This document shows positions 2,371-47,285 of a stretch of 64,000 nucleotides of DNA, piece after piece. The stretch lies in assembly GCF_014083985.1 (NCBI RefSeq), contig NZ_CP046907.1, forward strand, positions 5,032,501-5,096,500, given 5' to 3'. How positions within the stretch are numbered: the first letter of the stretch is position 1; each line of letters starts with the position of its first letter. Below the pieces are notes generated by a model, which did no database searches, was not told the DNA's origin, and saw nothing but the letters and a program-made list of their open reading frames with translations. The translations under genes and the position numbers were made by a program. This stretch comes from Streptomyces sp. SCUT-3 (lineage in GTDB: Bacteria > Actinomycetota > Actinomycetes > Streptomycetales > Streptomycetaceae).

Positions 2371-2451
2371 GCCCCCGGAGCAAGGCACTCTGGTTAACAG
2401 GCAAGACAGCACTGAGTACTGCAGCAGGAACAACCGACAGGAGTCATGTCG

Positions 2452-4929
2452 ATGTCCAACTCGTCCGAGGGCCGCTTCGAGCGGCGCTCCAGTGGCGGCT
2501 CGTACGGTTCGCGTGCCGGCGGGAGCAACGACCGACGTGACTTCCGTTCGGGAGGTCCGCGTCGGGAAGATGACCGTGGTGGGTTCCGCCGGGATGACCG
2601 TCCGAGCGGGCCACGCAGGGATGACGACCGTGGCGGGTTCCGTCGGGACGACCGTCCGAGCGGTCCGCGTCGGGACGACGACCGCGGTGGGTTCCGTCGC
2701 GATGACCGTCCGCGTCGGGACGACGAGCGTGGCGGGTTCCGCCGCGATGACCGTCCGAGCGGTCCGCGTCGGGACGACGAGCGTGGCGGGTTCCGTCGCG
2801 ATGACCGTCCGAGTGGGCCGCGCAGGGACGACCGCGGTGGGTTCCGCCGCGATGACCGTCCGAGCGGTCCGCGTCGGGACGACGAGCGTGGCGGTTTCCG
2901 TCGCGATGACCGTCCGAGTGGTCCGCGCAGGGACGACCGCGGTGGGTTCCGCCGGGACGACCGTCCGAGCGGGCCGCGTCGGGACGACGAGCGTGGCGGG
3001 TTCCGTCGCGATGACCGTCCGAGTGGTCCGCGCAGGGACGACCGCGGTGGGTTCCGCCGGGACGACCGTCCGAGCGGGCCGCGTCGGGACGACGAGCGTG
3101 GCGGTTTCCGTCGCGATGACCGTCCGAGTGGTCCGCGCAGGGACGACCGCGGTGGGTTCCGCCGGGACGACCGTCCGAGCGGGCCGCGTCGGGACGACGA
3201 GCGTGGCGGTTTCCGTCGCGATGACCGTCCGAGTGGTCCGCGCAGGGACGACCGCGGTGGGTTCCGCCGGGACGACCGTCCGAGCGGGCCGCGTCGGGAC
3301 GACGAGCGTGGTGGATTCCGTCGCGATGACCGTCCGAGTGATCCGCGTCGGGACGACGAGCGTGGCGGTTTCCGTCGCGATGACCGTCCGAGTGGTCCGC
3401 GCAGGGACGACCGCGGTGGGTTCCGCCGGGACGACCGTCCGAGTGATCCGCGTCGGGACGACGAGCGTGGCGGTTTCCGTCGCGATGACCGTCCGAGCGG
3501 GCCGCGTCGGGACGACGACCGTGGTGGATTCCGTCGGGACGACCGTCCGCGTCGGGACGACGAGCGTGGTGGGTTCCGTCGGGACGACCGTCCGCGTCGG
3601 GACGACGAGCGTGGTGGGTTCCGTCGGGACGACCGTCCGCGTCGGGACGACGAGCGTGGTGGGTTCCGCAGGGACGACCGTCCGAGCGGGCCGCGCAGGG
3701 ATGACGAGCGTGGTGGGTTCCGTCGGGACGACCGTCCGCGCAGGGATGACGAGCGTGGTGGGTTCCGCGGGGACGACCGTCCGCGTCGGGATGACGAGCG
3801 TGGTGGGTTCCGCGGGGACGACCGTCCGCGTCGGGACGACGAGCGTGGTGGGTTCCGCAGGGACGACCGTCCGAGCGGGCCGCGCAGGGATGACGAGCGT
3901 GGTGGGTTCCGTCGGGACGACCGTCCGCGCAGGGATGACGAGCGCGGCGGGTTCCGCGGGGACGATCGTCCGCGTCGGGACGACGGTGTGCGAGGGCCGC
4001 GCAGGGACCCGCGTGAGAGTGGGCTGGAGCCGGTGCGCCGGCTCCCGATCCCGGAGGAGGTCACCGGTTACGAGCTGGACGCCGACGTGCGCCAGGAGCT
4101 GAAGAGCCTGCCGAAGACCTTGGCGGACGACGTGGCCCGCAACCTGGTGATGGTGGCCCAGCTCCTCGACGAGGAGCCGGAGAAGGCTTACGACTACGCC
4201 AAGATCGCGCTGAGGCTCGCTTCGCGTATTCCGTCCGTCCGGGAGGCCGTCGGTTTCGCTTCCTACGCCACGGAGCGGTACACCGAGGCGCTGGCGGAGT
4301 TCCGTGCCGCGCGTCGGATGACGGGTTCGGCCGAGCTGTGGCCGGTGATGGCCGACTGCGAGCGCGGCCTGGGACGTCCGGAGAAGACGCTGGCCATGGC
4401 CGGCGCTCCCGAGGTGCAGAAGCTGGACCGTGCCGGTCAGGTGGAGATGCGGCTGGTCGCGGCCGGTGCCCGCCGGGACATGGGGCAGGTGGACGCTGCA
4501 GTGGTGACCCTGCAGGGTCCGGAGCTGGCCTCGACCGCCGTTCACCCGTGGACCGCTCGGCTGCGCTACGCGTACGCCGACGCGCTGCTCGCGGTGGGGC
4601 GCGAGGACGAGGCCCGCGACTGGTTCGCGAAGGCCCTCGAGGCGGACACCACCGGCACGACGAACGCCTCCGACCGGCTCGCAGAGCTGGACGGTGTGGA
4701 GTTCATCGACGCGCTCGACCCGGAGGCGGAGACGGAGGAGGACGGGTCCGTGGACGGGGCCGAGGCCGCGGTGAGCGGGGCCGAGACTTCGGACTCGGAC
4801 TCGGACTCGGGCTCGGAGGCCGGCGCCGGTCGTGAGGCGGAGGCCGGGGCCGACGACGCTGCCGCCGACGACGCCGGCACGGATGCGGTTCCTGCGGCTG
4901 CTGCGCAGGAGGACGACGCCGCGAAGTAG
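2452..4929 (+). CDS. TPR protein with a long Arg/Asp-rich GGFRRDD repeat array
   Basis: An 825-residue protein in three parts. Residues about 35-515 are low complexity: some 28 GGFR[R/G]DDRP units with spacers such as SGPRRDDER, very rich in Arg and Asp. Residues about 520-740 form a helical, TPR-like domain (readable helices such as DDVARNLVMVAQLLDEEPEKAYDYAKIA split over the region). The tail is Glu/Asp/Ser/Ala-rich and acidic. The ATG at 2452 is preferred over the one at 2446 because AGGAG at 2439-2443 lies 8 nt before it. The TPR core is found in a conserved streptomycete protein of unknown role; the charged repeat region resembles RNA-binding or condensate-forming disordered segments, which is inference. 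It lies just after the rrn terminator. Confidence 0.85.
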   Translation: MSNSSEGRFERRSSGGSYGSRAGGSNDRRDFRSGGPRREDDRGGFRRDDRPSGPRRDDDRGGFRRDDRPSGPRRDDDRGGFRRDDRPRRDDERGGFRRDDRPSGPRRDDERGGFRRDDRPSGPRRDDRGGFRRDDRPSGPRRDDERGGFRRDDRPSGPRRDDRGGFRRDDRPSGPRRDDERGGFRRDDRPSGPRRDDRGGFRRDDRPSGPRRDDERGGFRRDDRPSGPRRDDRGGFRRDDRPSGPRRDDERGGFRRDDRPSGPRRDDRGGFRRDDRPSGPRRDDERGGFRRDDRPSDPRRDDERGGFRRDDRPSGPRRDDRGGFRRDDRPSDPRRDDERGGFRRDDRPSGPRRDDDRGGFRRDDRPRRDDERGGFRRDDRPRRDDERGGFRRDDRPRRDDERGGFRRDDRPSGPRRDDERGGFRRDDRPRRDDERGGFRGDDRPRRDDERGGFRGDDRPRRDDERGGFRRDDRPSGPRRDDERGGFRRDDRPRRDDERGGFRGDDRPRRDDGVRGPRRDPRESGLEPVRRLPIPEEVTGYELDADVRQELKSLPKTLADDVARNLVMVAQLLDEEPEKAYDYAKIALRLASRIPSVREAVGFASYATERYTEALAEFRAARRMTGSAELWPVMADCERGLGRPEKTLAMAGAPEVQKLDRAGQVEMRLVAAGARRDMGQVDAAVVTLQGPELASTAVHPWTARLRYAYADALLAVGREDEARDWFAKALEADTTGTTNASDRLAELDGVEFIDALDPEAETEEDGSVDGAEAAVSGAETSDSDSDSGSEAGAGREAEAGADDAAADDAGTDAVPAAAAQEDDAAK
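2574..3990 (+). repeat. In-frame tandem repeat array coding GGFRRDDRP units
   Basis: About 28 imperfect units of 45, 51 or 54 bp (15, 17 or 18 codons). In the centre, from about unit 4 to unit 14, 54-bp and 51-bp units alternate, giving a higher-order repeat of about 105 bp; towards the 3' end 45-bp units dominate, some with GGFRGDD in place of GGFRRDD. Unit lengths are all multiples of three, so the frame is preserved. The repeat structure keeps several other frames open on both strands. Confidence 0.95.
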
Positions 4930-20881: not shown

Positions 20882-23020
20882 GTGGCGGAGCAGGCGCTGG
20901 AGAGGGACGGGCTGTCGGCGGCCGGGGCCGGCACCGGGGCGGGGGCCGCGGCACCCGCCGTCCCGCGCGACCTCCCCCCGTCGGACCCGTGCTTCCTGGG
21001 CCGGGCCGTGGAGACCAGGGAGCTCCTCGCCGAGATCGACCGCCCCGGGCTGGGGGCGTCCCGCGGCCGTCCGCAGGAGGGCTGCCGCGTCCTCCTCGTG
21101 GCCGGCCGGGCGGGTTCGGGGCGCACGGCCCTGGCGGTGCACCTCGCCCGCCTGGTCGCCGACCGCTACCCGGACGGGCAGCTCTTCGCCCGGCTGACCC
21201 GGCCCGGCGGCGCCCCCGTGTCCGCGGCCCAGGCCGCCCGGTCCTTCCTGGAGCGGCTGGGCCGGCCCGACGACGCCCGCGGGCGGGAGCCGGCCGCGGC
21301 GCTGCGGCGGGCGCTCGCGGGACGGCGGGTGCTGATCGTCCTCGACGACGTGGACGGCGCCGCGCAGATCCGGCCGCTGCTGCCGGACGCCCCCGGCAGC
21401 CTGGTGGTCGCCACCTCCGCGGGGCCGCTCACCGGGATCCCCGACGTGCGCCCCTGCGCCCTGGGCGGGCTCGACACCGCCTCCGCCGTCGAGCTGCTCA
21501 CCCGGACCGCGGGCTCCACCCGCGTCACGTGCGACCCCTGCGCGGCCGAGAGCCTGGTCGCCGAGTGCGCGGGGCACCCCGCCGCGCTGCGCCTGGCGGG
21601 GGCGTGGCTGGCGGCCCGGCCGCGGATGTCGGTGACCGACGCGCTGCAGCGCCTGCGGGACGTCCCCGACACGCCCTTCCCCCCGCCGCCGCCGGGGAGG
21701 GCGCTGCCGCCGGAGCAGGAGGGGTGCCCCGGGGAGGAGGCGGCCGGCCCGGACGGGGGAGGGGCCCCGCCGGTGCCCGCGGCGGCCCCGGTGCCGCCGT
21801 CGCCGCTGCTGAGGGCGTTCCGGCTGGTGTACGAGTCGTTCGCCCCCGGCGCGGCGCGGATGCTGCGCCTGCTGGTCCTCGCGCCGGAGGGCGTGGTCGA
21901 CGAGCACGTCGCCTCCGCGCTGGGAGGGTGTTCGGTCGCCGCTGCGCGGTCGACCCTGGACGAACTGGTCCGGGCCGGCGTCCTGGTGGCCGAGGGGGAC
22001 GCGCTGCGCGTCCCCGCCTGCCTGGTCCCGGCCCTGCGGGCCCTGACCGAGGCACTCGACCGGCCGGCCGAGGTGGAGCTGGCCCGGGCCCGGATGCTGG
22101 AGCGCACCGTGCGGCTCCTGCACGCCTGCCGGCTGGCGCTGACGCCCCCGGACGCCGCGGTGCGCGCCCGGATCGAGGCGCTGCCGCGTGCCATGAGGTT
22201 CCGTTCGCGCGCCGCGGCGGCGGACTGGCTGGACGGCCGGCTGCCGTCCCTGCTGGCGGCGGCGGACGCCGCGGCCGCCGACGGCGGGTTCGACACGCTC
22301 GCCCAGCGCCTGGTGGCGGGGCTGGTGCGGGCGCTCACCCACACCGACGGCGACCGGTCGCCCGAGCTGTACCGGCTGCACGGCCTGGTGCTGGAGGTGG
22401 CCACCCGCCGCGGCCTGCACCGTGAACGCGCCGCCGCGCTGATCAACCTGGCCGACCTGGACGTCAGGGCGGGCCGGCCGGAGGAGGCCCTGGGCCGTTA
22501 CCGCGAGGCCGTCACCGCCGCCCGGGCGGACGGCGACGGGGCCGCCGCGGCCCGCGCGCTCGAGGCCATCGGCAGCACCTACCGGCTGCTGGACGACCCG
22601 GACCGGGCCGCCGACTGGTACGGCCGCGCCCTCGCCCTGCGCCAGTTCCGGGGAGAGCAGGCCGACCAGGCCAGGCTCCACGGCCACCTGGGGGCGATGG
22701 GGGCGCGGAGCGGCCGGTGGGCGGAGAGCCTGCGGGAGTGGAGGGCCTGTGCCGCGCTCCACCGCAGGCTGGGGAACCTCTCCTCCCACGCCCGGGCGCT
22801 GGGGGAGGCGGCCGGGGTGCTGGAGAGCGCGGGGGAGGCCGAGGAGGGGCTGCGGGTCTGCCGCGAGGCGCTGCAGCGCGCCCGCACGGCGGGCGACACG
22901 CGGTTGGAGGCCGCGCTCCAGCTGCGGATGGGCGACACCCTGGAGAGGCTGGGGGATGCGGCCGGGGCGCGGCTGCACAGGGCCGAGGCGGCTCGCCTGC
23001 TGGAGGACGGGAACCGGTAA
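20882..23020 (+). CDS. AfsR-like STAND ATPase / TPR protein without a DNA-binding domain
   Basis: A 712-residue protein resembling the ATPase-plus-TPR half of AfsR/SARP regulators. A nucleotide-binding domain covers about 30-300, with P-loop GRAGSGRT at 75-82 and Walker B VLIVLDDVDG; then a proline-rich linker, a winged-helix-like segment (RMLRLLVLAPEGVVDEHVASALGG), and TPR repeats from about 520 to the end (ADLDVRAGRPEEALGRYREAV, GSTYRLLDDPDRAADWYGRAL). The invariant Walker A Lys is Arg at 81, so ATP hydrolysis may be weak or lost. There is no SARP or LuxR DNA-binding domain, suggesting signalling through protein contacts. GTG 20882 has GGGAG 8 nt upstream. It occupies the place where xerD is usually found. 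Confidence 0.82.
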   Translation: MAEQALERDGLSAAGAGTGAGAAAPAVPRDLPPSDPCFLGRAVETRELLAEIDRPGLGASRGRPQEGCRVLLVAGRAGSGRTALAVHLARLVADRYPDGQLFARLTRPGGAPVSAAQAARSFLERLGRPDDARGREPAAALRRALAGRRVLIVLDDVDGAAQIRPLLPDAPGSLVVATSAGPLTGIPDVRPCALGGLDTASAVELLTRTAGSTRVTCDPCAAESLVAECAGHPAALRLAGAWLAARPRMSVTDALQRLRDVPDTPFPPPPPGRALPPEQEGCPGEEAAGPDGGGAPPVPAAAPVPPSPLLRAFRLVYESFAPGAARMLRLLVLAPEGVVDEHVASALGGCSVAAARSTLDELVRAGVLVAEGDALRVPACLVPALRALTEALDRPAEVELARARMLERTVRLLHACRLALTPPDAAVRARIEALPRAMRFRSRAAAADWLDGRLPSLLAAADAAAADGGFDTLAQRLVAGLVRALTHTDGDRSPELYRLHGLVLEVATRRGLHRERAAALINLADLDVRAGRPEEALGRYREAVTAARADGDGAAAARALEAIGSTYRLLDDPDRAADWYGRALALRQFRGEQADQARLHGHLGAMGARSGRWAESLREWRACAALHRRLGNLSSHARALGEAAGVLESAGEAEEGLRVCREALQRARTAGDTRLEAALQLRMGDTLERLGDAAGARLHRAEAARLLEDGNR

Positions 23021-23092: not shown

Positions 23093-23120
23093 TGGACAGC
23101 GGGATCCCCTTCATTAGACT
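23093..23120 (+). promoter_or_regulatory. Candidate sigma-70-type promoter of ald
   Basis: TGGACA (23093-23098) and TAGACT (23115-23120) are 16 bp apart, five and four matches to the housekeeping consensus. They lie in an AT-rich island (about 23050-23120, including GAAATTATTCAGTTTGTAAG) unusual for this genome, about 80 bp before the ald start. The AT-rich stretch upstream could hold an Lrp/AsnC-type operator, as known for ald in other actinobacteria; that is inference. Confidence 0.4.
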
Positions 23121-23200
23121 TGGCCACATCGCGACTGTTGCGACTTGTTCCGGCATGTCCGGACTCTCCCGAATCCCCTCATTCAAGGACCGTGATCCAC

Positions 23201-24316
23201 GTGAAGGTCGGCATCCCCCGCGAGGTCAAGAACAACGAGTTCCGCGTGGCCATCACGCCCGCCGGCGTGCACGAGCTCGCCCGGGGCGGCCACCAGGTGT
23301 TCGTGGAGCACGACGCGGGCGTCGGCTCCTCGATCACCGACGACGAGTACGTCGCGGCGGGGGCCCGCATACTCGGCACGGCCGACGAGGTCTGGGCCGA
23401 GGCCGACCTGCTGCTGAAGGTCAAGGAGCCGATCGCGGAGGAGTACCACCGCCTGCGCAAGGACCAGACGCTCTTCACCTACCTGCACCTGGCCGCCTCC
23501 CGCGAGTGCACCGACGCCCTGCTGGCCTCCGGCACCACGGCGATCGCCTACGAGACGGTCGAGACGGCCAACCGCCGCCTGCCCCTGCTCGCCCCGATGT
23601 CCGAGGTCGCGGGCCGGCTGGCCCCGCAGGTCGGCGCCTACAGCCTGATGCGCTTCGCCGGCGGCCGCGGCGTGCTGCCCGGCGGCGTCCCCGGCGTGGC
23701 CGCGGGCCGCGCCGTGGTGATCGGCGCCGGCGTCTCCGGCTGGAACGCGGCGACCGTGGCGCTGGGCATGGGCTTCCACGTCACCCTGCTCGACCGCGAC
23801 CTCGACAAGCTCCGCGAGGCCGACCGGTTCTTCGGCAACCGCGTGCAGACCGTCGCCTCCAACGCCTTCGAGCTGGAGCGGGCCGTCCTGGCGGCGGACC
23901 TGGTCATCGGCGCGGTGCTGATCCCCGGCGCCCGCGCGCCCAAGCTGGTCACCAACGAGATGGTCTCGCGCATGAAGCCCGGCTCGGTGCTCGTCGACAT
24001 CGCCATCGACCAGGGCGGCTGCTTCGAGGACTCGCGCCCGACCACCCACGCCGAGCCCACCTACCGGGTGCACGACTCGGTCTTCTACTGCGTGGCCAAC
24101 ATGCCCGGCGCGGTGCCCCACACCTCCACCCACGCCCTGACCAACGCCACGCTGCCCTACATCGTGGAGCTGGCCAACCGCGGCTGGCGCGAGGCCGTCC
24201 GGCGCGACGCCGCCCTGGCCAAGGGGCTCAACACCCACGAGGGCCGGGTCACCTACGGTCCGGTCGGCGAGGCGCACGGCCTCGACGTTGTCGACATCGC
24301 GACAGTTCTCGCCTGA
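23201..24316 (+). CDS. ald: Alanine dehydrogenase
   Basis: A 371-residue NAD-dependent L-alanine dehydrogenase interconverting alanine with pyruvate and ammonia. It begins with the family signature [19 protein letters not shown]; the Rossmann motif is [21 protein letters not shown]; active-site residues lie in LLKVKEP and HLAAS, and the later [19 protein letters not shown] is characteristic. GTG 23201 gives the normal N-terminus, with AAGGA about 11 nt upstream; GTG 23192 is a less likely alternative. Preceded by its own candidate promoter and followed by a 14-bp hairpin, so probably monocistronic. Confidence 0.95.
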
Positions 24317-24652
24317 GCGACGGCCGCGCGGCGCCGACGAGCCGCGGACGAGACGCCGACGAGCCGGCGGGGCCCCGACGGGCCCCGCCGGCTTCCGTCG
24401 TGCCGGAGGGGTTGACGCGGGGTCAACTTGCCTCGAACATGACTTTTTCGCCGTTCTCCGCGTCCGGGAAATCTCTCGGACGACCGCCCCGAACCCTTGA
24501 CAGCGGGGCCTTTCGTCACCGACACATCGTGCCGTCTCCGCCGGATTGTGTTGCTGCGGAAGGCCGACACGCCATAGAGTCGCGAACCGTCGGCATGCTG
24601 TCAGGCTGACCTGTCTAGAAGATTCCTGGTCACCAAGGAGGTAAGACGACTT
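24317..24652 (+). other. Intergenic region between ald and parA
   Basis: 336 bp. It begins with the ald hairpin, then has the palindrome GTTGACGCGGGGTCAAC at about 24411-24427, an AT-richer stretch with GACTTTTTCGCCG, and TTGACA near 24496 that could be a -35 element. A well-formed AAGGAGGT precedes parA. No parS-like GTTTCACGTGGAAC was found here or elsewhere in the window. Confidence 0.5.
24362..24393 (+). terminator. Hairpin after ald
   Basis: A 14-bp perfect stem (24362-24375 against 24380-24393) with a 4-nt CGAC loop, 46 nt after the ald stop. Confidence 0.7.
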
Positions 24653-25795
24653 GTGAATGAGTCGACATTTGCTCCCGGGGGTGGTCAGCCAGGAACGCCG
24701 GTGCCGGCGCGGGAGAGCGCCGGGCTCGAGGCCGTCGGCTCCGTCGCGGTGCGGACGTTCGCCGCCCACCAGAGCATCGACACGGCGAGGACCCGCGCGG
24801 TCCGCCACGCGGCGACCGGGGCCGACACCGACCGGTTCGCCGACTACGACGACGACCTGACCGACGGTCAGCTCTACGATCCGGACGCCGAGTACGAGCC
24901 GGACCCCGAGTACGCGGCCACCCTCGCGCCCGACGCCGCCCGGCAGCGCCGCGAGCGGGTCGGCCCCACCGGCCGCCCCCTGCCCTACTTCCCGATCCCC
25001 GGCCCCGTGTCCGAGCACGGCCCCGCCACGATCATCGCCATGTGCAACCAGAAGGGCGGGGTCGGCAAGACGACCTCGACCATCAACCTCGGCGCCGCAC
25101 TGGCCGAGTACGGCCGCCGGGTCCTCCTGGTCGACTTCGACCCGCAGGGAGCCCTGTCCGTGGGCCTGGGGGTCAACCCCATGGAACTCGACATCACCGT
25201 CTACAACCTGCTCATGGAGCGCGGCCTGGCCGCCGACGAGGTGTTGCTGAAGACGGCCGTCCCCGGCATGGACCTGCTGCCCAGCAACATCGACCTGTCC
25301 GCCGCAGAGGTGCAGCTGGTCAGCGAGGTCGCCCGCGAGTCCACCCTGCAGCGCGCCCTCAAGCCGCTGATGCAGGACTACGACTACGTCATCATCGACT
25401 GCCAGCCCTCGCTCGGCCTGCTCACCGTCAACGCGCTGACCGCGGCGCACCGGGTGATCGTGCCGCTGGAGTGCGAGTTCTTCGCGCTGCGCGGAGTCGC
25501 GCTGCTCACCGAGACGATCGAGAAGGTCCGCGAGCGGCTCAACCCCGAGCTGGACCTCGACGGCATCCTGGCCACCATGTACGACTCCCGCACCGTGCAC
25601 AGCCGGGAGGTGCTGGCGCGCGTCGTCGAGGCCTTCGGCGAGCACGTCTTCCACACCGTCATCGGCCGCACCGTGCGCTTCCCGGAGACCACGGTGGCCG
25701 GCGAGCCCATCACCACCTACGCCTCCAACTCCGTCGGTGCCGCCGCATACCGCCAGCTCGCCAGGGAGGTGCTCGCCCGGTGCCACGCCGAGTGA
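24653..25795 (+). CDS. parA: ParA-family ATPase, chromosome partitioning type
   Basis: A 380-residue Walker-type ATPase. The deviant Walker A KGGVGKTTSTINL follows IIAMCNQ at about residue 130; the motifs VLLVDFDPQG and YVIIDCQPSLGLLTVNAL and the late TVAGEPITTYA match ParA/Soj. An unusual 120-residue N-terminal extension is disordered and rich in Asp, Glu, Pro and Ala. GTG 24653 has AAGGAGGT 10 nt upstream. This is not the parAB locus near oriC: no ParB homologue is adjacent. Instead it is followed by an overlapping gene for a possible ribbon-helix-helix protein and by scpA-scpB, pointing to a role in chromosome organisation. Confidence 0.88.
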   Translation: MNESTFAPGGGQPGTPVPARESAGLEAVGSVAVRTFAAHQSIDTARTRAVRHAATGADTDRFADYDDDLTDGQLYDPDAEYEPDPEYAATLAPDAARQRRERVGPTGRPLPYFPIPGPVSEHGPATIIAMCNQKGGVGKTTSTINLGAALAEYGRRVLLVDFDPQGALSVGLGVNPMELDITVYNLLMERGLAADEVLLKTAVPGMDLLPSNIDLSAAEVQLVSEVARESTLQRALKPLMQDYDYVIIDCQPSLGLLTVNALTAAHRVIVPLECEFFALRGVALLTETIEKVRERLNPELDLDGILATMYDSRTVHSREVLARVVEAFGEHVFHTVIGRTVRFPETTVAGEPITTYASNSVGAAAYRQLAREVLARCHAE

Positions 25796-26535
25796 GCCTC
25801 CCCGGGGCCGACGAACTCTTCCGCACCACCGGGGGCACGGCGCTCCAGCCGCCCTCCCGCGGCGCGGACGGCGGCGGAGGGACACCGCAGTCGTCCGGCG
25901 GCCGGGAACGGCCCGAGGAACGGCCGCGCCCGCCCTTCCCCGCAGAAGGCAGGGACGCCTTCGGCGCGGCACCGGGCGCCCAGGCCGGCCCGGCGCCCGC
26001 GGCCGCCGCGGGCACGGGACCGGACCGCCACGACCGCCCGGCCGCGGGCGCCCCGGAGCACTCGGGCCGGGGCTCCGGGACCGGCGCGGAGCAGGACGGC
26101 CGCGACCGCCGCCGCACCGTCCCCGAGCAGCTGCAGCAGACGCAGGCGAACCACGTGCCGCGCACCACGGTGGCCCCGCGCCGCCCCGGCCAGCCGCAGG
26201 CCGCCGCCCCGCAGACCGCCGCCCCGCAGGGGGCCGGGCCGCAGGGGGCCGGGACGGTTCCCGCGGCGTCCGGCCAGCCCCCACGGCGCGCACGGCAGCC
26301 GCGCCCGACGCCGCGCCGCCCCAGCGGCCGCGAACGGCACGACGAGAAGATCACCGTGTACGTCTCGGCCGAGGAGCTGATGGACCTCGAGCACGCGCGG
26401 CTGGTGCTGCGCGGGGAACACGGCCTGGCGGTCGACCGCGGGCGGATCGTCCGCGAGGCGGTCGCCGTGGTGCTCGCCGACCTCGAGGCGCGGGGCGACG
26501 CGAGCATCCTGGTGCGGCGGCTGCGCGGTCGCTGA
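25780..26535 (+). CDS. Hypothetical protein with C-terminal RHH-like domain, ParA partner candidate
   Basis: A 251-residue protein. A short N-terminal block (PRRVSLPGADELFRTTGG) is followed by about 160 disordered residues rich in Pro, Gly, Ala, Arg and Gln. The C-terminal 65 residues are well formed: EKITVYVSAEELMDLEHARL, then HGLAVDRGRIVREAVAVVLADLE, a strand-helix-helix layout like ribbon-helix-helix DNA-binding proteins. GTG 25780 has GGAGGT 9 nt upstream and overlaps parA by 16 nt; GTG 25792 (4-nt overlap) is the alternative. Tight coupling to parA suggests it is the DNA-binding partner, a ParB substitute. That is inference; the family has no established function known to me. Confidence 0.72.
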   Translation: MPRRVSLPGADELFRTTGGTALQPPSRGADGGGGTPQSSGGRERPEERPRPPFPAEGRDAFGAAPGAQAGPAPAAAAGTGPDRHDRPAAGAPEHSGRGSGTGAEQDGRDRRRTVPEQLQQTQANHVPRTTVAPRRPGQPQAAAPQTAAPQGAGPQGAGTVPAASGQPPRRARQPRPTPRRPSGRERHDEKITVYVSAEELMDLEHARLVLRGEHGLAVDRGRIVREAVAVVLADLEARGDASILVRRLRGR

Positions 26536-26612
26536 CCCGCCCGCGGGTAGTCTCGGTCCCGGGTGCGGCCACCGTCCGGCCGGCGCCCGGTCAGCCCCAG
26601 GCAGGAAGCCCG

Positions 26613-27626
26613 ATGCCGCCCACCGACGACGTGGCCCCCGCCGCCCCCTCCCCGGGGGCGGCGGGCGGGCCGTCACGTCCCGCACGGCGCCCCCTGGGCA
26701 GCGGCCCCGGGGCGGGGACCACCGGCGCACCCTCCGGCGGAACCCCCGGTGAGTCCCCGGGCGCGTCCCCCGGGGGGACGGACGGGGAGGCCGGCCGCGA
26801 CGGGCGGGGGGAGCACGGCTTCCGGGTGCGCCTGGAGAACTTCGAGGGCCCCTTCGACCTGCTGCTCCACCTGATCGCCCGGCACAAGATGGACGTCACC
26901 GAGGTCGCCCTGTCCCGGGTCACCGACGACTTCATGGCGCACATCCGGGCCACGGGCCCGGACTGGGACCTCGACCGGACCACGGAGTTCCTCGTCGTCG
27001 CGGCCACCCTGCTCGACCTCAAGGCCGCACGGCTGCTCCCCGTCGCCGAGGTCGAGAACGAGGAGGACCTGGCCCTGCTGGAGGCGCGGGACCTGCTCTT
27101 CGCCCGGCTCCTGCAGTACCGCGCCTACAAGCGCGTCGCGCGGATCCTCGCCGACCGCTGGGAACAGGAGGAACTGCGCCGTCCGCGCACCGTCGGCCTG
27201 GAACCGCACCACGCCGCCCTCCTGCCCGAGGTCGTGCTCGGCATCGGCCCCGAGGGGTTCGCCGAGCTCGCGGCCCGGGTCCTGCGGCCCAGGCCCCGGC
27301 CGCAGGTGTACGTCGACCACATCCACGCCCCGCTGGTCAGCGTGCGCGAGCAGGCGGAGGTCGTGGCCGGCCGCCTGCGGGAGCTGGGCGAGGCGACGTT
27401 CGCGGCGCTCACCGAGGACGCCCGCGGCGACACCCTCACGGTCGTGGCCCGCTTCCTGGCCGTGCTGGAGCTGTACCGGGAGAGGGCGGTGGCGCTGGAC
27501 CAGCCGGAGGCGCTGGGGGAGTTGCTGGTGCGCTGGACCGGGGACGGGACCGGCCGCCCGGCGGTGACCGACGAGTTCGACCGGGAAGAGCGGCCGGACG
27601 CGAGCACGACGGAGACGAGGACGTGA
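26613..27626 (+). CDS. scpA: Segregation and condensation protein A
   Basis: A 337-residue kleisin that bridges SMC heads in bacterial condensin. After about 70 disordered residues comes the conserved FRVRLENFEGPFDLLLHLIARHKMDVTEVAL, then TEFLVVAATLLDLKAARLLP, and a C-terminal winged-helix region (FLAVLELYRERAVALDQPEALGELLVRW). The long Gly/Pro-rich N-terminus is an actinobacterial feature. ATG 26613 follows AGGAAG. It overlaps scpB by 4 nt (GTGA). Confidence 0.93.
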   Translation: MPPTDDVAPAAPSPGAAGGPSRPARRPLGSGPGAGTTGAPSGGTPGESPGASPGGTDGEAGRDGRGEHGFRVRLENFEGPFDLLLHLIARHKMDVTEVALSRVTDDFMAHIRATGPDWDLDRTTEFLVVAATLLDLKAARLLPVAEVENEEDLALLEARDLLFARLLQYRAYKRVARILADRWEQEELRRPRTVGLEPHHAALLPEVVLGIGPEGFAELAARVLRPRPRPQVYVDHIHAPLVSVREQAEVVAGRLRELGEATFAALTEDARGDTLTVVARFLAVLELYRERAVALDQPEALGELLVRWTGDGTGRPAVTDEFDREERPDASTTETRT

Positions 27627-28309
27627 GAGAACCGGGCCCGGACCTGCCGGACACCACCGCGCAGGAGGAAGCACCGGCGCCGCCCCCGGCCGGCCTGCTC
27701 TCCACGGCCGGACTCGACCTCAAACCCGCACTGGAGGCGGTGCTGACGGTCGCCGACGAGCCGGCCGCGGAGGAGCGGCTGGCGCAGGTGCTGCAGCGCC
27801 CCCGCCGCGAGGTCGTCCTGGCCCTGCACGAACTGGCCGAGGAGTACACGGCCGCGGGCCGCGGGTTCGACCTGCGCAAGGTGGCCGGGGGGTGGCGCTT
27901 CTACACCCGCGCCGCCTACTCGCCCGCCGTGGAGCGGTTCGTCCTGGACGGGCGGCAGGCCCGCCTGACACAGGCCGCACTGGAGACCCTCGCGGTGGTC
28001 GCCTACCGCCAGCCGGTCAGCCGCTCGCGGGTCTCCGCGGTGCGCGGGGTCAACTGCGACGGCGTCATGCGCACCCTCCTGCACAGGGGTCTGGTCCGGG
28101 AGGCTGGGACGGAGGCCGCCACAGGTGCGATCCTGTACGGGACGACGGACTACTTCCTGGAGCGGATGGGCCTGCGGGGCCTCGACGAGCTTCCCGAACT
28201 GGCGCCCTTCCTACCGGAGGCGGACGCCGTGGAGGCGGAGTCCGGGGAGGGGGTTCCGTCGTTCGACCCGGACGAAGAAGACACCACCCACTCGACTACG
28301 GAACCTTGA
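27623..28309 (+). CDS. scpB: Segregation and condensation protein B
   Basis: A 228-residue partner of ScpA built from two winged-helix domains: LKPALEAVLTVADEPAAEERLAQVL to RGFDLRKVAGGWRFYTRAAY, and LTQAALETLAVVAYRQPVSRSRV to YGTTDYFLERMGLRGLDELPEL. The GTG start overlaps the scpA stop by 4 nt and its stop overlaps the rluB start by 1 nt, so scpA, scpB and rluB are translationally coupled. The C-terminal tail is acidic. Confidence 0.93.
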   Translation: MREPGPDLPDTTAQEEAPAPPPAGLLSTAGLDLKPALEAVLTVADEPAAEERLAQVLQRPRREVVLALHELAEEYTAAGRGFDLRKVAGGWRFYTRAAYSPAVERFVLDGRQARLTQAALETLAVVAYRQPVSRSRVSAVRGVNCDGVMRTLLHRGLVREAGTEAATGAILYGTTDYFLERMGLRGLDELPELAPFLPEADAVEAESGEGVPSFDPDEEDTTHSTTEP

Positions 28310-29493
28310 TGCGAAGCAGCGGCAGGAACAGCGGCAACCGGAACTACCGGGGCGCCGGCAATCAGCGCGACGACCAGAGCAGGCGCGCGGGCCGACCCCG
28401 CCCCGAGGAGCGCCGCTACGACGTCGGTGGCTCCTCGGGCACCGGATCGGGGGAGGGCAGGCAGGGCGAGGGCCGCAAGGGCGGCCGCCCCGGCACCGGG
28501 GGAGCGGGCGCGGGCGGACGCGGCACCGGCGGCGGACGCCCCGGCGGCACCGGCGGACGTCCCGGCGGCACCGGCGGACGTCCCGGCGGCGGAGGCGGGC
28601 GCCCCGGCGGCGGAGGCGCGGGCGGCGGGCGCGCGGGCGGCGGGGGCGGTCCGCAGCGCGGCCGCCGGCCGGCCCCGGCCCGCTCCCGCGAGTACGAGGC
28701 CCAGGTGGAGGAGCGCAACCGCGCGCGGCACGACAAGCCGCAGGTCAAGCTCCCCAAGACCTTCGGCGAGGTGGAGGGCGAGCGCCTGCAGAAGGTGCTG
28801 GCGCGGGCCGGCATGGGCAGCCGGCGGGCGTGCGAGGAGCTGATCGACGCCGGCCGGGTGGAGGTCAACGGGCAGATCGTCCTGGAGCAGGGCCTGCGGG
28901 TCGACCCGGAGAAGGACGAGATCAAGGTCGACGGCCTGACCGTCGCCACCCAGAGCTACCTGTTCTTCGCGCTCAACAAGCCGGCCGGGGTCGTCTCCAC
29001 CATGGAGGACCCGGACGGACGTCAGTGCCTGGGCGACTACGTGACCAACCGCGAGACGCGGCTGTTCCACGTCGGCCGCCTCGACACCGAGACCGAGGGC
29101 ATCATCCTGCTCACCAACCACGGAGAGCTGGCCCACCGCCTCACCCACCCCAAGTACGGCGTGACCAAGACCTACCTGGCCGCCATCGTCGGCCCCCTCC
29201 CCAAGGACCTGGGCAAGCGGCTCAAGGACGGCATCCCGCTGGAGGACGGCTACGCGCGCGCCGACAACTTCAGGGTCGTCCAGAACACCGGGAAGAACTA
29301 CCTGGTCGAGGTGAGCCTGCACGAGGGGCGCAAGCACATCGTGCGGCGCATGCTCGCCGAGGCGGGCTTCCCCGTGGAGAAGCTGGTGCGCACCCACTTC
29401 GGGCCCATCGCGCTGGGCGACCAGAAGTCCGGCTGGCTGCGCCGCCTGACCAACACCGAGGTCGGCATGCTGATGCGCGAGGTCGGCCTGTAG
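28309..29493 (+). CDS. rluB: Pseudouridine synthase, RluB/RsuA family
   Basis: A 394-residue rRNA pseudouridine synthase. The first about 130 residues are a disordered Gly/Arg-rich stretch with repeated TGGRPGG. Then follow an S4 RNA-binding domain (RLQKVLARAGMGSRRACEELI) and the catalytic domain with HVGRLDTETEGIILLTNHGEL, which has the catalytic Asp, and the closing HEGRKHIVRRMLAEAGFPVEKLVR. It likely modifies U2605-type positions in 23S rRNA. The basic Gly/Arg-rich extension may help bind rRNA. ATG overlaps the scpB stop (TGATG). A 20-bp bidirectional hairpin follows. Confidence 0.92.
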   Translation: MRSSGRNSGNRNYRGAGNQRDDQSRRAGRPRPEERRYDVGGSSGTGSGEGRQGEGRKGGRPGTGGAGAGGRGTGGGRPGGTGGRPGGTGGRPGGGGGRPGGGGAGGGRAGGGGGPQRGRRPAPARSREYEAQVEERNRARHDKPQVKLPKTFGEVEGERLQKVLARAGMGSRRACEELIDAGRVEVNGQIVLEQGLRVDPEKDEIKVDGLTVATQSYLFFALNKPAGVVSTMEDPDGRQCLGDYVTNRETRLFHVGRLDTETEGIILLTNHGELAHRLTHPKYGVTKTYLAAIVGPLPKDLGKRLKDGIPLEDGYARADNFRVVQNTGKNYLVEVSLHEGRKHIVRRMLAEAGFPVEKLVRTHFGPIALGDQKSGWLRRLTNTEVGMLMREVGL

Positions 29494-43025: not shown

Positions 43026-43739
43026 GTGTCCGTCTACGTGTACGCCATCACAGCCGCCGACCACCCGCTGCGGCTGGACGACCTCAAGGGCGTGGGTGAG
43101 GCGGAGGCCCCCCTCCGGGCGGTGAAGGAAGGACGGGTCGCCGCCGTGGTGAGCGACGCCCCGGCCGAACTGAGGGCCAAGAGAAGAGACCTGGCCGCCC
43201 ACCAGGCGGTCCTGGAGCGGCTGATGAGCGACGGCGCCGTCCTGCCGATGCGCTTCGGCCTGGTCGGGCCCGACGACGACCAGGTCGCCGAGGTCCTCCG
43301 GGAGCGCTCGGAGGAGTACACCGAGCGCCTGGCCGAACTCGACGGCTGCGTCGAGTACAACCTGAAGGTCTCCCAGGACGAGGACGACCTGCTGCGCGAG
43401 GTGGTCCTCGGCTCGGAGGAGGTCCGCCGCCTCAACGACCTCACCCGCTCCGGCGAGGGCACCCAGGACGACCGCATCGCCCTCGGCGAGCTGGTCGCGC
43501 GGGAGGTCGAGGAGCGCGGGCAGGCCCGCGCCGGCGAGATCGCCGCGGCGCTGGAACCCTTCGCGGTCCGCCGGGAACCCGGCCAGCCGACGAAGGAGCA
43601 CTTCTTCAACACCTCCTTCCTCGTCGAGCGCGGCCGCGCCAAGGAGTTCACCGACGCGGAAGAGGCGCTGGCGGAGAAGTACGGCCAGGGGTACGGGTTC
43701 CGGCTGCACGGCCCGCTGCCCCCCTACAGCTTCGTCTGA
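43026..43739 (+). CDS. gvpF: Gas vesicle protein GvpF (GvpL/GvpF family)
   Basis: A 237-residue assembly factor. It opens with SVYVYAITAADHPL and has AVVSDAP, AHQAVLERLMSDGAVLPMRFGLV and, near the end, NTSFLVERGRAKEFTDAEEAL and LHGPLPPYSFV, all GvpF/L signatures. In other systems GvpF binds GvpA early in assembly. It starts 3 nt after gvpA. A second family member, gvpL, lies 2.7 kb downstream in the same operon. Confidence 0.94.
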   Translation: MSVYVYAITAADHPLRLDDLKGVGEAEAPLRAVKEGRVAAVVSDAPAELRAKRRDLAAHQAVLERLMSDGAVLPMRFGLVGPDDDQVAEVLRERSEEYTERLAELDGCVEYNLKVSQDEDDLLREVVLGSEEVRRLNDLTRSGEGTQDDRIALGELVAREVEERGQARAGEIAAALEPFAVRREPGQPTKEHFFNTSFLVERGRAKEFTDAEEALAEKYGQGYGFRLHGPLPPYSFV

Positions 43740-43761
43740 GCCGCACGGCAGGAGGACCGCC

Positions 43762-44019
43762 ATGGGCCTGATCACGCAGATCCTGACCCTCCCCTTCGCC
43801 CCCGTGAAGGGAGTCGGCTGGGTGCTGGACCAGGTGGTCCTCACCGCGGAACGCCAGTACTACGACCCGGCCCCCGTCCGGAAGGAACTGGCGGAGCTGG
43901 AACAGGCGCTTCTCGACGGAGAGATCGACGAGGAGGAGTTCGACCGTCGCGAGGACGAACTGCTGGACCGCCTCGAGGAGCTCGAGGCGTACCAGCAGTC
44001 CCTGCAGGCGCGCTCGTGA
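43762..44019 (+). CDS. gvpG: Gas vesicle protein GvpG
   Basis: An 85-residue helical protein. The N-terminal GLITQILTLPFAPVKGVGWVLDQV is the GvpG signature, followed by a charged coiled-coil (RKELAELEQALLDGEIDEEEFD). GvpG is a minor assembly protein that interacts with GvpF and GvpL in haloarchaea. AGGAGG precedes the ATG. The stop overlaps the gvpY start (GTGA). Confidence 0.94.
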   Translation: MGLITQILTLPFAPVKGVGWVLDQVVLTAERQYYDPAPVRKELAELEQALLDGEIDEEEFDRREDELLDRLEELEAYQQSLQARS

Positions 44020-44699
44020 ACGACACGGAAAGACAGGGCGAGATGATGGACAACGCGAAGATAGGCGCAGCCCTGGTGGGTGGCTACCTGCTCGGGCGGA
44101 CGAAGAAGGCCAAGCTCGCCGCCGGACTGGGGATGTTCCTGGCCGGCAAGAAGCTCAGCCTGGACCCCGCGCAGTTGGGCAGGATGCTGTCCGGTTCGCA
44201 GGCCCTGGGCGGACTCAGCGACCAGGCCCGCAAGGAGCTGCTGGAAGCCACCAAGTCCGCCGCGGCGACGGCACTGACCAAGAGGGCCAGCAGCCTCGCC
44301 GACACCCTCCACGAGCGCACCGTCGGACTCGGGAAGGGCGGGGGCGGCCGCAAGGAGGAGTCGGCCGAGGAGGAGCCCGAGGAGCCCGAGGCCCGTGAGG
44401 AGCCGGAGGGCGAGGAGGAGCCGGAGGGCGAGGAGTCCCGGGCCGAGGAGGAAGGGGAGGCCGAGGAGCCCGAGGAGGAGAAGGAGGAGAAGGAGGCGCG
44501 GGAGAAGCCCCGGCGCCGTACCGCCTCCGCCTCCCGCAAGACGGCGGGCGCCGCCAAGACGGGGGGCGCCGCCAAGACGGCGGGCACCAGGACGGCGGGC
44601 ACCGCGAAGAAGGCTGCCGCCTCTCCCCGCAAGACCGCGGCCGCGTCCCGGAAGAAGGCCGGCTCGGCCGCCTCCGGAAGGGGGAAGCGCAGTGAGTGA
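44016..44699 (+). CDS. gvpY: Gas vesicle protein GvpY
   Basis: A 227-residue protein found in this position in streptomycete gvp operons. The N-terminus has a hydrophobic Gly-rich helix (AKIGAALVGGYLLGRTKKAKLAAGLGMFLAG), then a helical segment with SDQARKELLEATKSAAATALT; the rest is a Glu/Pro-rich acidic stretch followed by a Lys/Ala/Thr-rich basic tail. GTG 44016 overlaps the gvpG stop by 4 nt; ATG 44043 or 44046 are alternatives. The charge split could let it bridge other components, which is inference. Its exact role is not known. Confidence 0.82.
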   Translation: MNDTERQGEMMDNAKIGAALVGGYLLGRTKKAKLAAGLGMFLAGKKLSLDPAQLGRMLSGSQALGGLSDQARKELLEATKSAAATALTKRASSLADTLHERTVGLGKGGGGRKEESAEEEPEEPEAREEPEGEEEPEGEESRAEEEGEAEEPEEEKEEKEAREKPRRRTASASRKTAGAAKTGGAAKTAGTRTAGTAKKAAASPRKTAAASRKKAGSAASGRGKRSE

Positions 44700-45855
44700 C
44701 ACCAACGGCTTCATGGGCCGGATCGCCGACAACCCGGCCGCCGACCGGCTCAAGCAGGAACTGCAGGACTACCTCCGGGCCAGGGCCCAGCAGGCTGTCA
44801 CCGATCTGGGCCACAAACTCGGCGAGGGGGTCTCCAGACTCGCCGAACCCGGCCAGAACTCCGGACAGGGACTGCTGGGGAGCCTGGCCAAGGGCGGGCA
44901 GGCGCTGGCGGAGGGCAAGTCCCCCGCGAGGGCGGCGATGTCCGTCGGCGCCTCGCACGTGAAGGAGAGCGTCAAGGAGAAGGTCAAGGGCCTCTTCGGC
45001 AAGGGCAAGGGCAAGGGCGGCGGCGGCAAGTCCAAGAGCGTCACGATCATCGAGAACATCGACGTCGGCGTGCCCGTGCGCGTGGCCTACGACCAGTGGA
45101 CGCAGTTCCAGGAGTTCAGCACCTGGGCCAAGGGCGTCGTCAGCGTCGACCGGACCGACGACGTCTCCAGCAACTGGGCGGTGAAGGTCGCCAAGTCGAC
45201 CCGCACCTGGAAGGCCACCGTCACCGAGCAGGTGCCGGACGAGCGGATCAAGTGGACCACCGACGGGCCCAAGGGCACGGTCAAGGGCGTGGTGACGTTC
45301 CACCCGCTCGGGGAGAACCTCACCCGCGTGCTGCTGGTCCTGGAGTACTTCCCGCAGGGCCTGTTCGAGAAGACCGGCAACATCTGGCGCGCCCAGGGCC
45401 GCCGGACCCGTCTCGACCTCAAGCTCTACCGCAAGTTCATCATGATGCGCGGCGAGGCCACCGACGGCTGGCGCGGTGAGATCCGCGAGGGCGAGGTCGT
45501 GCGCGACGACCAGGAGGTCCGCGAGGCCGAGGAGGCCGAGGAGGCCGAGGAGGCCGAGGCCGGGGAAGAGGGCGAGGAGCCCGAGGAGGGCGAGGAGGAG
45601 CGCGGGGAGGAGGAAGAGCCCGAGGACGAGTACGAGGAGGGCGAGGAAGAGCCCGAGGAGGGCGACGAGGAGCCCGAGGACGAGTACGAGGACGAGGAGG
45701 AGGAGCCCGAAGAGGAGGAGGGCGAGGAGGACCGGTACGAGGACGACGAGGAGGAGCCCGAGTACGACGAGGAGCCCGAGGACGAGTACGAGGACGAGGA
45801 AGAGCCCGAGGAGGACGAGGACCGTCCCCGCAGCAGGCCGGCCGCCCGCCGCTGA
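44692..45855 (+). CDS. gvpZ: Gas vesicle protein GvpZ, SRPBCC domain with acidic tail
   Basis: A 387-residue protein. An N-terminal helical region (NPAADRLKQELQDYLRARAQQ) and a basic linker (GKGKGKGGGGKSKS) precede an SRPBCC-fold domain at about 120-260 (VTIIENIDVGVPVRVAYDQW, FQEFSTWAKGV, VLLVLEYFPQGLFEKTGNI). The final about 110 residues are nearly pure Glu/Asp/Pro with Tyr. The GTG start lies inside the gvpY end, 8-nt overlap, with AAGGGGGAAG 5-6 nt upstream. The SRPBCC domain may bind a hydrophobic patch of the shell or a lipid; the tail may keep vesicles dispersed. Both are inference. Confidence 0.85.
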   Translation: MSDTNGFMGRIADNPAADRLKQELQDYLRARAQQAVTDLGHKLGEGVSRLAEPGQNSGQGLLGSLAKGGQALAEGKSPARAAMSVGASHVKESVKEKVKGLFGKGKGKGGGGKSKSVTIIENIDVGVPVRVAYDQWTQFQEFSTWAKGVVSVDRTDDVSSNWAVKVAKSTRTWKATVTEQVPDERIKWTTDGPKGTVKGVVTFHPLGENLTRVLLVLEYFPQGLFEKTGNIWRAQGRRTRLDLKLYRKFIMMRGEATDGWRGEIREGEVVRDDQEVREAEEAEEAEEAEAGEEGEEPEEGEEERGEEEEPEDEYEEGEEEPEEGDEEPEDEYEDEEEEPEEEEGEEDRYEDDEEEPEYDEEPEDEYEDEEEPEEDEDRPRSRPAARR

Positions 45856-45915
45856 CACCCCGGACCCGGAACGATCCCGGAAGACCGAACGACCCCGGAA
45901 GCGAGGCCGAACAGC

Positions 45916-46401
45916 GTGACCGAACCGATCGCCTCCCGCATGGGCCCCACGCCCAACCGGGCGGTGTCCGCCTACGGGCAGCAGGGGTCGTCGGCGAACC
46001 TCGCCGACATCCTCGAGAGGGTGCTGGACAAGGGCGTCGTCATCGCCGGCGACATCCAGATCAACCTGCTCGACATCGAACTGCTGACCATCAAGCTGCG
46101 CCTGCTGGTCGCCTCCGTCGACAAGGCCAAGGAGATGGGCATCGACTGGTGGGAGCACGACCCCTCGCTGTCCTCCCGGGCCAGGGAGGACGGGTACAGC
46201 ATGGAGCGGGGCAGGGCGCACCGTTCGCTCGAGGAGGAGAACGAGCGTCTGCGGGCCGAGGTGGAGAGGCTGCGTTCGGCGGAGGGCCGGGCGGTCGGGG
46301 GCGGCCCCGTCGAGGGCCGTGTCGTCGAGGAGCGCGCCGAGGGCGCCCCCGCCGTCGAGAGCCGTGCCGACGCGGACCGCACGGGCGAGGAACGGAGGTG
46401 A
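45916..46401 (+). CDS. gvpJ: Gas vesicle protein GvpJ
   Basis: A 161-residue GvpA-family minor shell protein. The core LADILERVLDKGVVIAGDIQINLLDIELLTIKLRLLVASVDKAKEMGI (read in parts) matches GvpJ/GvpM, and GIDWWEHDPSL is the GvpJ-type continuation. A coiled-coil (EEENERLRAEVERLR) and a charged tail follow. The stop overlaps an in-frame GTG before gvpL. GvpJ-type proteins are thought to shape the conical tips. Confidence 0.93.
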   Translation: MTEPIASRMGPTPNRAVSAYGQQGSSANLADILERVLDKGVVIAGDIQINLLDIELLTIKLRLLVASVDKAKEMGIDWWEHDPSLSSRAREDGYSMERGRAHRSLEEENERLRAEVERLRSAEGRAVGGGPVEGRVVEERAEGAPAVESRADADRTGEERR

Positions 46402-46406
46402 CCCCG

Positions 46407-47285
46407 GTGGGGAACGAGGAGGAGACGGCCGTCTACGTCTACGCCGTCACCCGCGAGGTGCCGGAGGCCGAGGCGGCCGTCGCCGCCCTCCCGGGGGTGC
46501 TGGGCACACCGGTCCGCACCGTCTCCGAGGGCGGGCTGACGGCCCTGGCGGGGCGGGTGCCCGCGCACCTCTTCGGGGAGGAGGCGCTGAAGCGGCAACT
46601 GGAGGACCTGGAGCAGCTGGAGTCCATGGCCCGCGCGCACAACGCCGTCGTCGAGGCGGTCACCGCGCGGACCCTCGCCCTGCCGCTGCGCCTGGCGACC
46701 GTCTACCTCGACGAGGAGCGGGTGCGGGAGATGCTGCGGGAGCGGGCGGAGGAGTTCCGGGAGCTGCTGGGCCGGCTCGAGGGGCACCTGGAGCTGGGGG
46801 TCAAGGTCTACGCCGACCCGCAGCACCGCCCGGCGGCCTCCGAGCAGTCCGGGGCGGGGGAGCGGGCCCCGGCGGCGCGGGCCGCCGTGAGCCCCGGCCG
46901 CGCCTACCTCCAGCAGCGCAGGATGCAGCGCCGTTCCCGGGAGGACGCCTACCGCAGTGCGGAGCAGGCCGCGGCGGCGGTCGCGGCGGAGGCCGAACTG
47001 ATCGCCGTGGACCGGGTCCGCCACCGCCTCCAGCAGGGGGAGCTCGCCGCCGGTCCGGGCCAGAACATCGCCAACGACGCGTACCTGGTGCCGGTCGCGC
47101 AGGCGGAGGAGTTCCGCCGCAGGGTGCTGGCCGCCGGGGAGGCACCCGGGGTCCGCGTGGAGGTCACGGGGCCGTGGGCGCCGTACTCCTTCGCCACCCC
47201 GCCGCCCGACGCGGCACCGGCCCCCGCCGGGGAGGGTCCGGCCGGCGGCGCCGTGGCCGGGGCCCCGGGGTCGGGGGAGCGATGA
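46407..47285 (+). CDS. gvpL: Gas vesicle protein GvpL (GvpL/GvpF family)
   Basis: A 292-residue second member of the GvpL/F family: TAVYVYAVTREVPEAEA, GLTALAGRVPAHLF, MARAHNAVVEAVTARTLALPLRLATVYLDEERV, and GPWAPYSFATPP near the C-terminus. Compared with GvpF it has an extra arginine-rich insertion (YLQQRRMQRRSREDAYRSAEQ) and a Pro/Ala/Gly tail. GTG 46407 has GGAGG 8 nt upstream; GTG 46398, overlapping the gvpJ stop, is also in frame. It overlaps gvpS by 4 nt (ATGA). Confidence 0.92.
   Translation: MGNEEETAVYVYAVTREVPEAEAAVAALPGVLGTPVRTVSEGGLTALAGRVPAHLFGEEALKRQLEDLEQLESMARAHNAVVEAVTARTLALPLRLATVYLDEERVREMLRERAEEFRELLGRLEGHLELGVKVYADPQHRPAASEQSGAGERAPAARAAVSPGRAYLQQRRMQRRSREDAYRSAEQAAAAVAAEAELIAVDRVRHRLQQGELAAGPGQNIANDAYLVPVAQAEEFRRRVLAAGEAPGVRVEVTGPWAPYSFATPPPDAAPAPAGEGPAGGAVAGAPGSGER

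Follow-up and report, generated by a model that had tools for sequence, protein, structure and literature searches.

A PldP/Rv1708-type ParA and its probable ribbon-helix-helix partner beside scpA and scpB on a Streptomyces chromosome

Described ParA systems and the locus studied

An orphan, or second, ParA linked to scpA is already known from actinobacteria under the names PldP, Rv1708 and SCO1772 (PMC3989709, PMC10482377, PMC4255298). PldP is reported to interact with ParB and to be localised at septa (PMC3989709, PMC7022226, PMC4255298), and Rv1708 to contact both ScpA and ParB and to complement an E. coli minDE mutant (PMC10482377). A role in septum placement has been published for both proteins (PMC10482377, PMC3989709, PMC4255298). 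Here, we describe a ParA of this type in Streptomyces sp. SCUT-3, together with the gene that overlaps its end, hereafter the partner gene. Both lie in a 64,000-nucleotide (nt) stretch of DNA (the window) at 5.03-5.10 Mb on the single 6.08-Mb chromosomal contig. In it, parA, the partner gene, scpA, scpB and an rluB-like gene follow one another on the forward strand (+), an order read from the open reading frames of the window and their Pfam matches. By analogy with known systems, we consider it fairly likely that the partner is a DNA-binding protein dedicated to the PldP-type ParA, acting like the partners of type Ib plasmid systems.

In the type Ib systems, including ParF-ParG of TP228, delta-omega of pSM19035 and ParAB of pCXC100, parA is likewise followed by the gene of a small partner whose N-terminus is disordered and whose C-terminus forms a ribbon-helix-helix (RHH) domain, the latter being a prediction for the protein described here. 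The type Ib partners, pCXC100 ParB included, are RHH proteins (PMC5016525), and they combine this C-terminal domain with a flexible N-terminal tail, a ParA-stimulating arginine and a helix that docks in the cleft of the ParA dimer (PMC5016525, PMC5393062). Unlike them, the window pair is chromosomal, occurs phylum-wide and stands in an operon with scpAB, and a search with the one partner protein found no relative among 72,556 plasmid records or 50,697 phage records. In addition, its N-terminal motif is different, its first helix is longer and no repeat centromere was found. The archaeal SegAB system is also a chromosomal ParA with an RHH partner (PMC9178275), a likeness drawn by description, with the RHH fold predicted here; the accessible text of that account mentions no link to scpAB. 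Canonical ParABS systems use a Walker-type ParA too, and the ParB of this genome begins with RRRGLGRGLGALI, which by eye loosely resembles RRVSLPGADELF. ParB, however, is a helix-turn-helix protein, and both ParB and parS are more than 2 Mb from the window locus.

Pairs of ParA with an RHH partner have been described on plasmids and in archaea, and a widespread chromosomal version in bacteria, usually beside scpAB, appears to be new. The published accounts of the PldP/Rv1708 group, in the portions available, do not mention an RHH neighbour. In the searched open-licence full texts SCO1772 is mentioned in two papers, SCO1771 and SCO1770 are not, and no RHH neighbour of ParA is described; SCO1771 is the putative orthologue of the partner gene. 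The partner is not described in this literature, whereas the ParA is known.

Pairing of ParA and partner across actinobacteria

The window parA (24653..25795, +) starts at the GTG that follows AAGGAGGT and encodes a Walker ATPase that contains KGGVGKTT and is 95% identical to the ParA of Streptomyces cirratus. The Pfam models that it matches above cut-off are those of P-loop ATPases (AAA_31, E 5e-61), and it matches no helix-turn-helix Pfam model. By sequence, it belongs to the PldP/Rv1708/SCO1772 group. A midpoint-rooted ParA tree was built from 74 rows, comprising 45 ParA proteins with a partner, 12 without one and 17 other ParA proteins (loci L170 and L171, which did not match the ParA search pattern, are absent from it). 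The 45 and the 12 form one clade (100/99), separate from 16 of the 17 others; the seventeenth, L166, falls inside the clade on a long branch, and its placement is unsure. PldP, Rv1708, MSMEG_3743 and SCO1772 (ParA2) share this group with the window ParA, as well as its place before scpA.

The partner gene (25780..26535, +) encodes 251 residues and overlaps parA by 16 nt. Its GTG start lies inside the end of parA, 9 nt downstream of GGAGGT (25765-25770, +), a ribosome-binding site that is retained in relatives. The start was checked in 60 loci, 30 from a whole-protein search and 30 from a search with a C-terminal profile, a sample in which some genomes are shared and the window locus occurs twice. 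In 59 of them a start codon stands 7-8 residues ahead of PGADELF with GAGG upstream, the exception being L056. The start at 25780 was chosen because ribosome-binding-site spacing and relatives agree on it; on the same grounds a start at 25792, which would give a 4-nt GTGA overlap, was rejected. Two scan patterns, one of them PGA[DE]ELFRxT, gave at least 549 matches, 80 of which we refer to as named loci. ParA is contained in 78 of the 80 (L112 and L115 start near contig ends). Among the 78 that are readable in the partner gene (L115 ends at a contig edge and L148 is masked), the partner gene overlaps parA by 16 nt in 60 loci and by 4 nt in nine, with rarer overlaps of 17, 19 and 32 nt in two loci each and of 194 nt in one; a 13-nt gap separates the genes in one locus, and parA lies outside the available sequence in another. 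The 194-nt case is L085, where, as in L064, the parA frame extends far beyond the start of the RHH gene, giving an overlap far longer than elsewhere.

The partner is found throughout the family of the window and well beyond it. The whole-protein search matched 60 of 61 family genomes (G010 gave no match, and in G002 and G041 the N-terminal part alone was matched). In a phylum-wide sample of 296 genomes, a profile of the 75 C-terminal residues matched 39, of which 12 (window included) belong to the same family, one more to the same class and 26 to other classes. ParA was found at E <= 1e-82 in 61 of the 296. Cross-tabulation places both proteins in 38 genomes, the partner only in one, ParA only in 23 and neither in 234 (Fisher p 1e-30, a value that ignores shared ancestry). 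In 37 of the 39 genomes, the partner domain lies 41-519 nt downstream of ParA on the same strand. In G187 ParA and partner are divided between two contigs, and in G169 a diverged ParA (44% match) stands immediately upstream of the partner. The contig-split genome aside, none of the 39 carries a partner gene away from ParA. This distribution suggests that the partner is an old companion of ParA across distantly related actinobacteria.

The genomes with ParA only fall almost entirely in the window's class. Twenty-two of the 23 belong to it; in the remaining one, G313, a different open reading frame follows parA, thymidine phosphorylase-like by eye. We examined 12 of the 22, and in all 12 parA is followed directly by scpA, with no RHH match. 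On the ParA tree, the RHH-less rows need three changes, two of them forced by well-supported branches, a pattern that under the midpoint root suggests that ParA and partner formed an ancestral pair from which the partner was later lost two or three times. The lineages in which contacts of PldP and Rv1708 with ParB were reported are probably without the RHH gene, because 22 of the 23 sampled genomes of the same class, outside the family, that have a PldP-type ParA lack it. In 18 genomes of other classes without the partner, where the best ParA locus alone was inspected, this best ParA shows 43-51% identity and has no scpA within 1.5 kb on either side.

No parB was found in the operon among the genes of the 64-kb window. 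The only other close ParA of the genome is at 2.908 Mb and is followed by ParB (read by eye), and a search allowing <=2 mismatches placed the genome's eight parS-like sites at 2.68-2.97 Mb. The first-pass annotation of the window, made from its letters, had described a 16-nt overlap between parA and the next gene, then scpA and scpB, with no ParB or parS nearby. The coordinates and Pfam matches agree, and more than 2 Mb separates the locus from canonical parAB and from each of the eight parS-like sites, so this description of the genes is correct. Its term "ParB-independent" is too strong, as PldP and Rv1708 are reported to contact ParB (PMC7022226, PMC10482377).

Predicted architecture and proposed role of the partner

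In an alignment of 32 full-length partners, P8, A10, L13, F14 and R15 are invariant, as are positions in the last 65 residues, and none between. The N-terminal consensus of 96 sequences, a set that excludes the motif-less L056, is RRxxLPxAx[DE]LFRxT, with conserved arginines at R3, R4 and R15. All 96 share P, A, L and F of the motif and 95 share its last R, and at these positions the codons vary. In the window, the conserved peptide (residues 3-17, RRVSLPGADELFRTT; 25786..25830, +) is the proposed ParA-binding and activating motif, and the genome has a single copy of the motif. It is not a by-product of the overlap, because just the first five codons and one base of the gene overlap parA. All 78 readable named loci carry it (71 by pattern, 7 by eye), a count that is not independent because one scan pattern was PGA[DE]ELFRxT. 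The RHH-only profile is independent, and the motif is present in 29 of the 30 loci retrieved with the C-terminal profile alone (30 loci from 39 matches).

The motif is followed by a low-complexity linker (residues ~20-180; 25837..26319, +) that is predicted to be disordered. AlphaFold2 gives a per-residue confidence (pLDDT) of ~50-60 outside residues 191-250, with a short undocked helix at residues 10-13. The partner is 102-285 residues long in the named loci, and therefore the length of the linker varies greatly between species. The C-terminal domain (residues 183-251; 26326..26532, +) is predicted with much higher confidence, at pLDDT 93-97 over residues 191-250 and a mean of 91 when modelled alone. 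Helices span residues 197-214, 220-241 and 243-249, two of them being the main ones, and the domain also has a K-x-T-x-Y segment. An hhalign comparison with RHH_1, made from 9 of 10 sequences (L198 excluded), gave 54% probability and a score of 24.1, whereas the best of 30 column shuffles reached 4.7% and 16.2. It pairs K-x-T-V-Y with the RHH strand and makes the first helix about ten residues longer than in RHH_1. According to our modelling, the domain is probably of the ribbon-helix-helix type. The whole partner protein matches no Pfam, NCBIfam or PHROGs family; PDB sequence and curated-family searches gave nothing convincing, with weak matches that were mutually inconsistent. A search of viral structures, which gave 63 matches at E 10 or better (the best, among the best 50 of the 63, at 0.25), was not used.

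Layout, gene order and pairing match those of type Ib partners, and from this we infer a peptide that contacts and stimulates ParA and an RHH domain bound to a DNA site; by the same analogy, the partner is a probable ATPase activator of the PldP-type ParA. Two copies would pair via their strands, forming an RHH domain that grips a specific DNA sequence. With its long disordered linker, the protein could extend the RRxxLPxAx[DE]LFR peptide to a nucleoid-bound ParA-ATP dimer, where the peptide may dock as a short helix, so that a conserved arginine could stimulate ATP hydrolysis. As ParA is released and binds again in repeated rounds, the bound DNA, or ParA itself, would be moved into position. 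In this way the location of condensin, of the division site or of both might be set with respect to the chromosome; the links to condensin and to the septum come from the accessible text of published work on PldP and Rv1708.

Tentatively, the pair may have a wider meaning. Actinobacteria might have inherited, besides ParABS, a second chromosomal partition machine made of a PldP-type ParA and an RHH centromere-binding activator, often encoded in one operon with condensin, which positions a chromosomal site or condensin and is tied to septum placement. In the model species that have been studied, the partner would have been lost and ParB would have become the ligand. In the literature PldP, Rv1708 and SCO1772 figure as an orphan ParA whose switching and positioning have no clear explanation. 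If an ancestral DNA-binding activator exists, the question of ParA switching could be put to a direct test in Streptomyces. The plasmid type Ib and archaeal SegAB systems would then be joined by a chromosomal pair of ParA and RHH protein from bacteria, and this pair would hint at how a ParA gradient could couple to condensin.

Several points weigh against the partner being a DNA-binding activator of ParA. Its contacts with DNA and with ParA are ones that we infer. The model of the monomer shows no strand, which is expected for a monomer and is not proof of an RHH fold. In both Foldseek searches of the PDB the first match was ParB of plasmid pCXC100, with weak E values of 2.9 and 2.2, and the two best VIA-align rows, pCXC100 ParB (Z 4.3 and 4.6) and the RHH protein NikR (Z 3.6 and 4.9), are weak as well. 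The locus L056 (genome G302) keeps the first residues VNRRAS without LPGADELFR, while retaining ParA and the RHH domain. Of the 61 genomes with a PldP-type ParA, 23 have no partner, and therefore this ParA can act without it; no ParA column met the cut-offs as a marker of partner loss in both main RHH-less clades. The ParA carries an N-terminal extension of ~120 residues (380 residues in total, against about 200-230 in type Ib), unlike the small type Ib ParA. In the upstream regions examined there is no iteron-like centromere or repeat array, and their conservation is explained at least partly by the regulator WhiA, as set out below.

The first-pass annotation had read the C-terminal ~65 residues as an RHH domain, and the gene as the DNA-binding-type partner of a second ParA. 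For residues 183-251, AlphaFold2 modelled two main helices, and Foldseek and hhalign gave RHH matches. The model and the profile comparison argue for this fold, whereas the structural scores are weak and no curated family covers it. The pairing, the operon with scpAB and the lack of an adjacent ParB argue for the partnership, whereas the binding is argued from analogy and the orphan ParA was already known. On fold and partnership, this reading is probably correct.

Alternative explanations and neighbouring features

We find it rather unlikely that the RHH protein does no more than repress its own operon, parA-scpA-scpB, which would make the connection with ParA a regulatory and not a mechanical one. 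Many RHH proteins act as repressors, and repression of their own operon is known for type Ib partners as well (PMC5016525). In addition, the 156 nt ahead of parA (24497..24652, +) are highly conserved in 50 of 65 collected upstream regions, the 50 that share the parA start context. This block, however, contains two GACAC motifs (24521-24525 and 24566-24570) besides TTGACA (24497-24502). GACAC is the motif of WhiA, which is reported to bind before the ParA-like gene sven1406, a target before sporulation whose function was "yet to be investigated" as of 2013 (PMC3781837). The gene sven1406 is probably the orthologue of the window parA, and the block is probably a promoter and WhiA target. We did not assign it to the RHH protein because the GACAC within it is the WhiA motif; an RHH operator inside the block is possible. 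Moreover, a repressor would not need a conserved N-terminal peptide on a long linker, and the pairing tracks parA even where scpAB is elsewhere.

Two candidate sites in this region were rejected. A perfect inverted repeat, TTGAC-N5-GTCAA (24412-24426), occurs in the window only among the 65 upstream regions as an operator candidate; L116 has a wider-spaced copy of it elsewhere in its upstream region. As a genome-wide site, GGATTGTGTTGCTG, part of the upstream block, has one exact copy and 11 matches at <=2 mismatches; its reversed control has 9.

A role for the RHH protein as loader or adaptor of condensin, acting on ScpA/SMC with ParA there for another reason, is very unlikely. scpAB is in an operon with parA-RHH in the window and in most named loci, and Rv1708 is reported to bind ScpA (PMC10482377), but the pair is kept where this arrangement is broken. 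In L100 and L128, scpA-scpB lies upstream on the strand opposite to parA-RHH, so the operon is broken and the pair retained; in L076, L086 and L112 scpA is ~2-3.5 kb distant, and it was not seen within ~4 kb downstream in L094 or within 1.2 kb in L071. In L092, L117 and L125 the sequence ends <0.7 kb past the partner gene. Conversely, scpAB follows parA without an RHH gene in the 12 genomes described above. Because parA-RHH occurs without adjacent scpAB and parA-scpAB without RHH, the parA-RHH pairing is tighter than the link to condensin. The tie to condensin proposed in the first-pass annotation belongs to ParA, whose place before scpA persists without the RHH gene, more than to the RHH protein.

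Less likely still, the RHH protein may serve the nucleoid or the division site, with an N-terminal motif that binds a target other than ParA (a divisome protein, for example) and an operon that reflects co-expression. Septum placement has been connected with PldP and Rv1708 (PMC10482377, PMC3989709, PMC4255298), the RHH nucleoid protein CdbA has an important part in organising the Myxococcus chromosome (PMC7156744), and L056 lacks the motif and has ParA and an RHH domain, but in the 39 genomes no partner gene stands apart from ParA, bar the one contig split.

Downstream of the partner gene, scpA (26613..27626, +) matches SMC_ScpA at E 2e-50 (searched from 26622, with ATG 26613 as the start candidate), and scpB (27623..28309, +) matches SMC_ScpB at E 1e-51. 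They are followed by an RluB-like pseudouridine synthase with S4 and PseudoU_synth_2 matches (28318..29493, +, 5' end approximate). Upstream of parA, the open reading frame at 23120-24316 looks by eye like an alanine dehydrogenase, which would fit the order SCO1774-1773-1772 (PMC3878966).

Farther from the locus, ARAGORN calls a 97-nt tRNA-Arg (cct) at 22214-22310 (+) within a long AfsR-like frame, probably spuriously. The first 4 kb of the window have a G+C content of 0.64, against 0.71-0.79 in the remaining 4-kb steps. A large open reading frame at 2446-4929 (+) contains many GGFRRDDRPSGPRRDDE-type repeats, followed by a distinct C-terminal part. At 43026-47285 (+) lie open reading frames starting MSVYVYAITA and also containing AVYVYAVTRE, which from their look we take to be the gas vesicle proteins GvpF/GvpL. 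The 44-48 kb step shows a high AT skew and reading frames rich in Glu.

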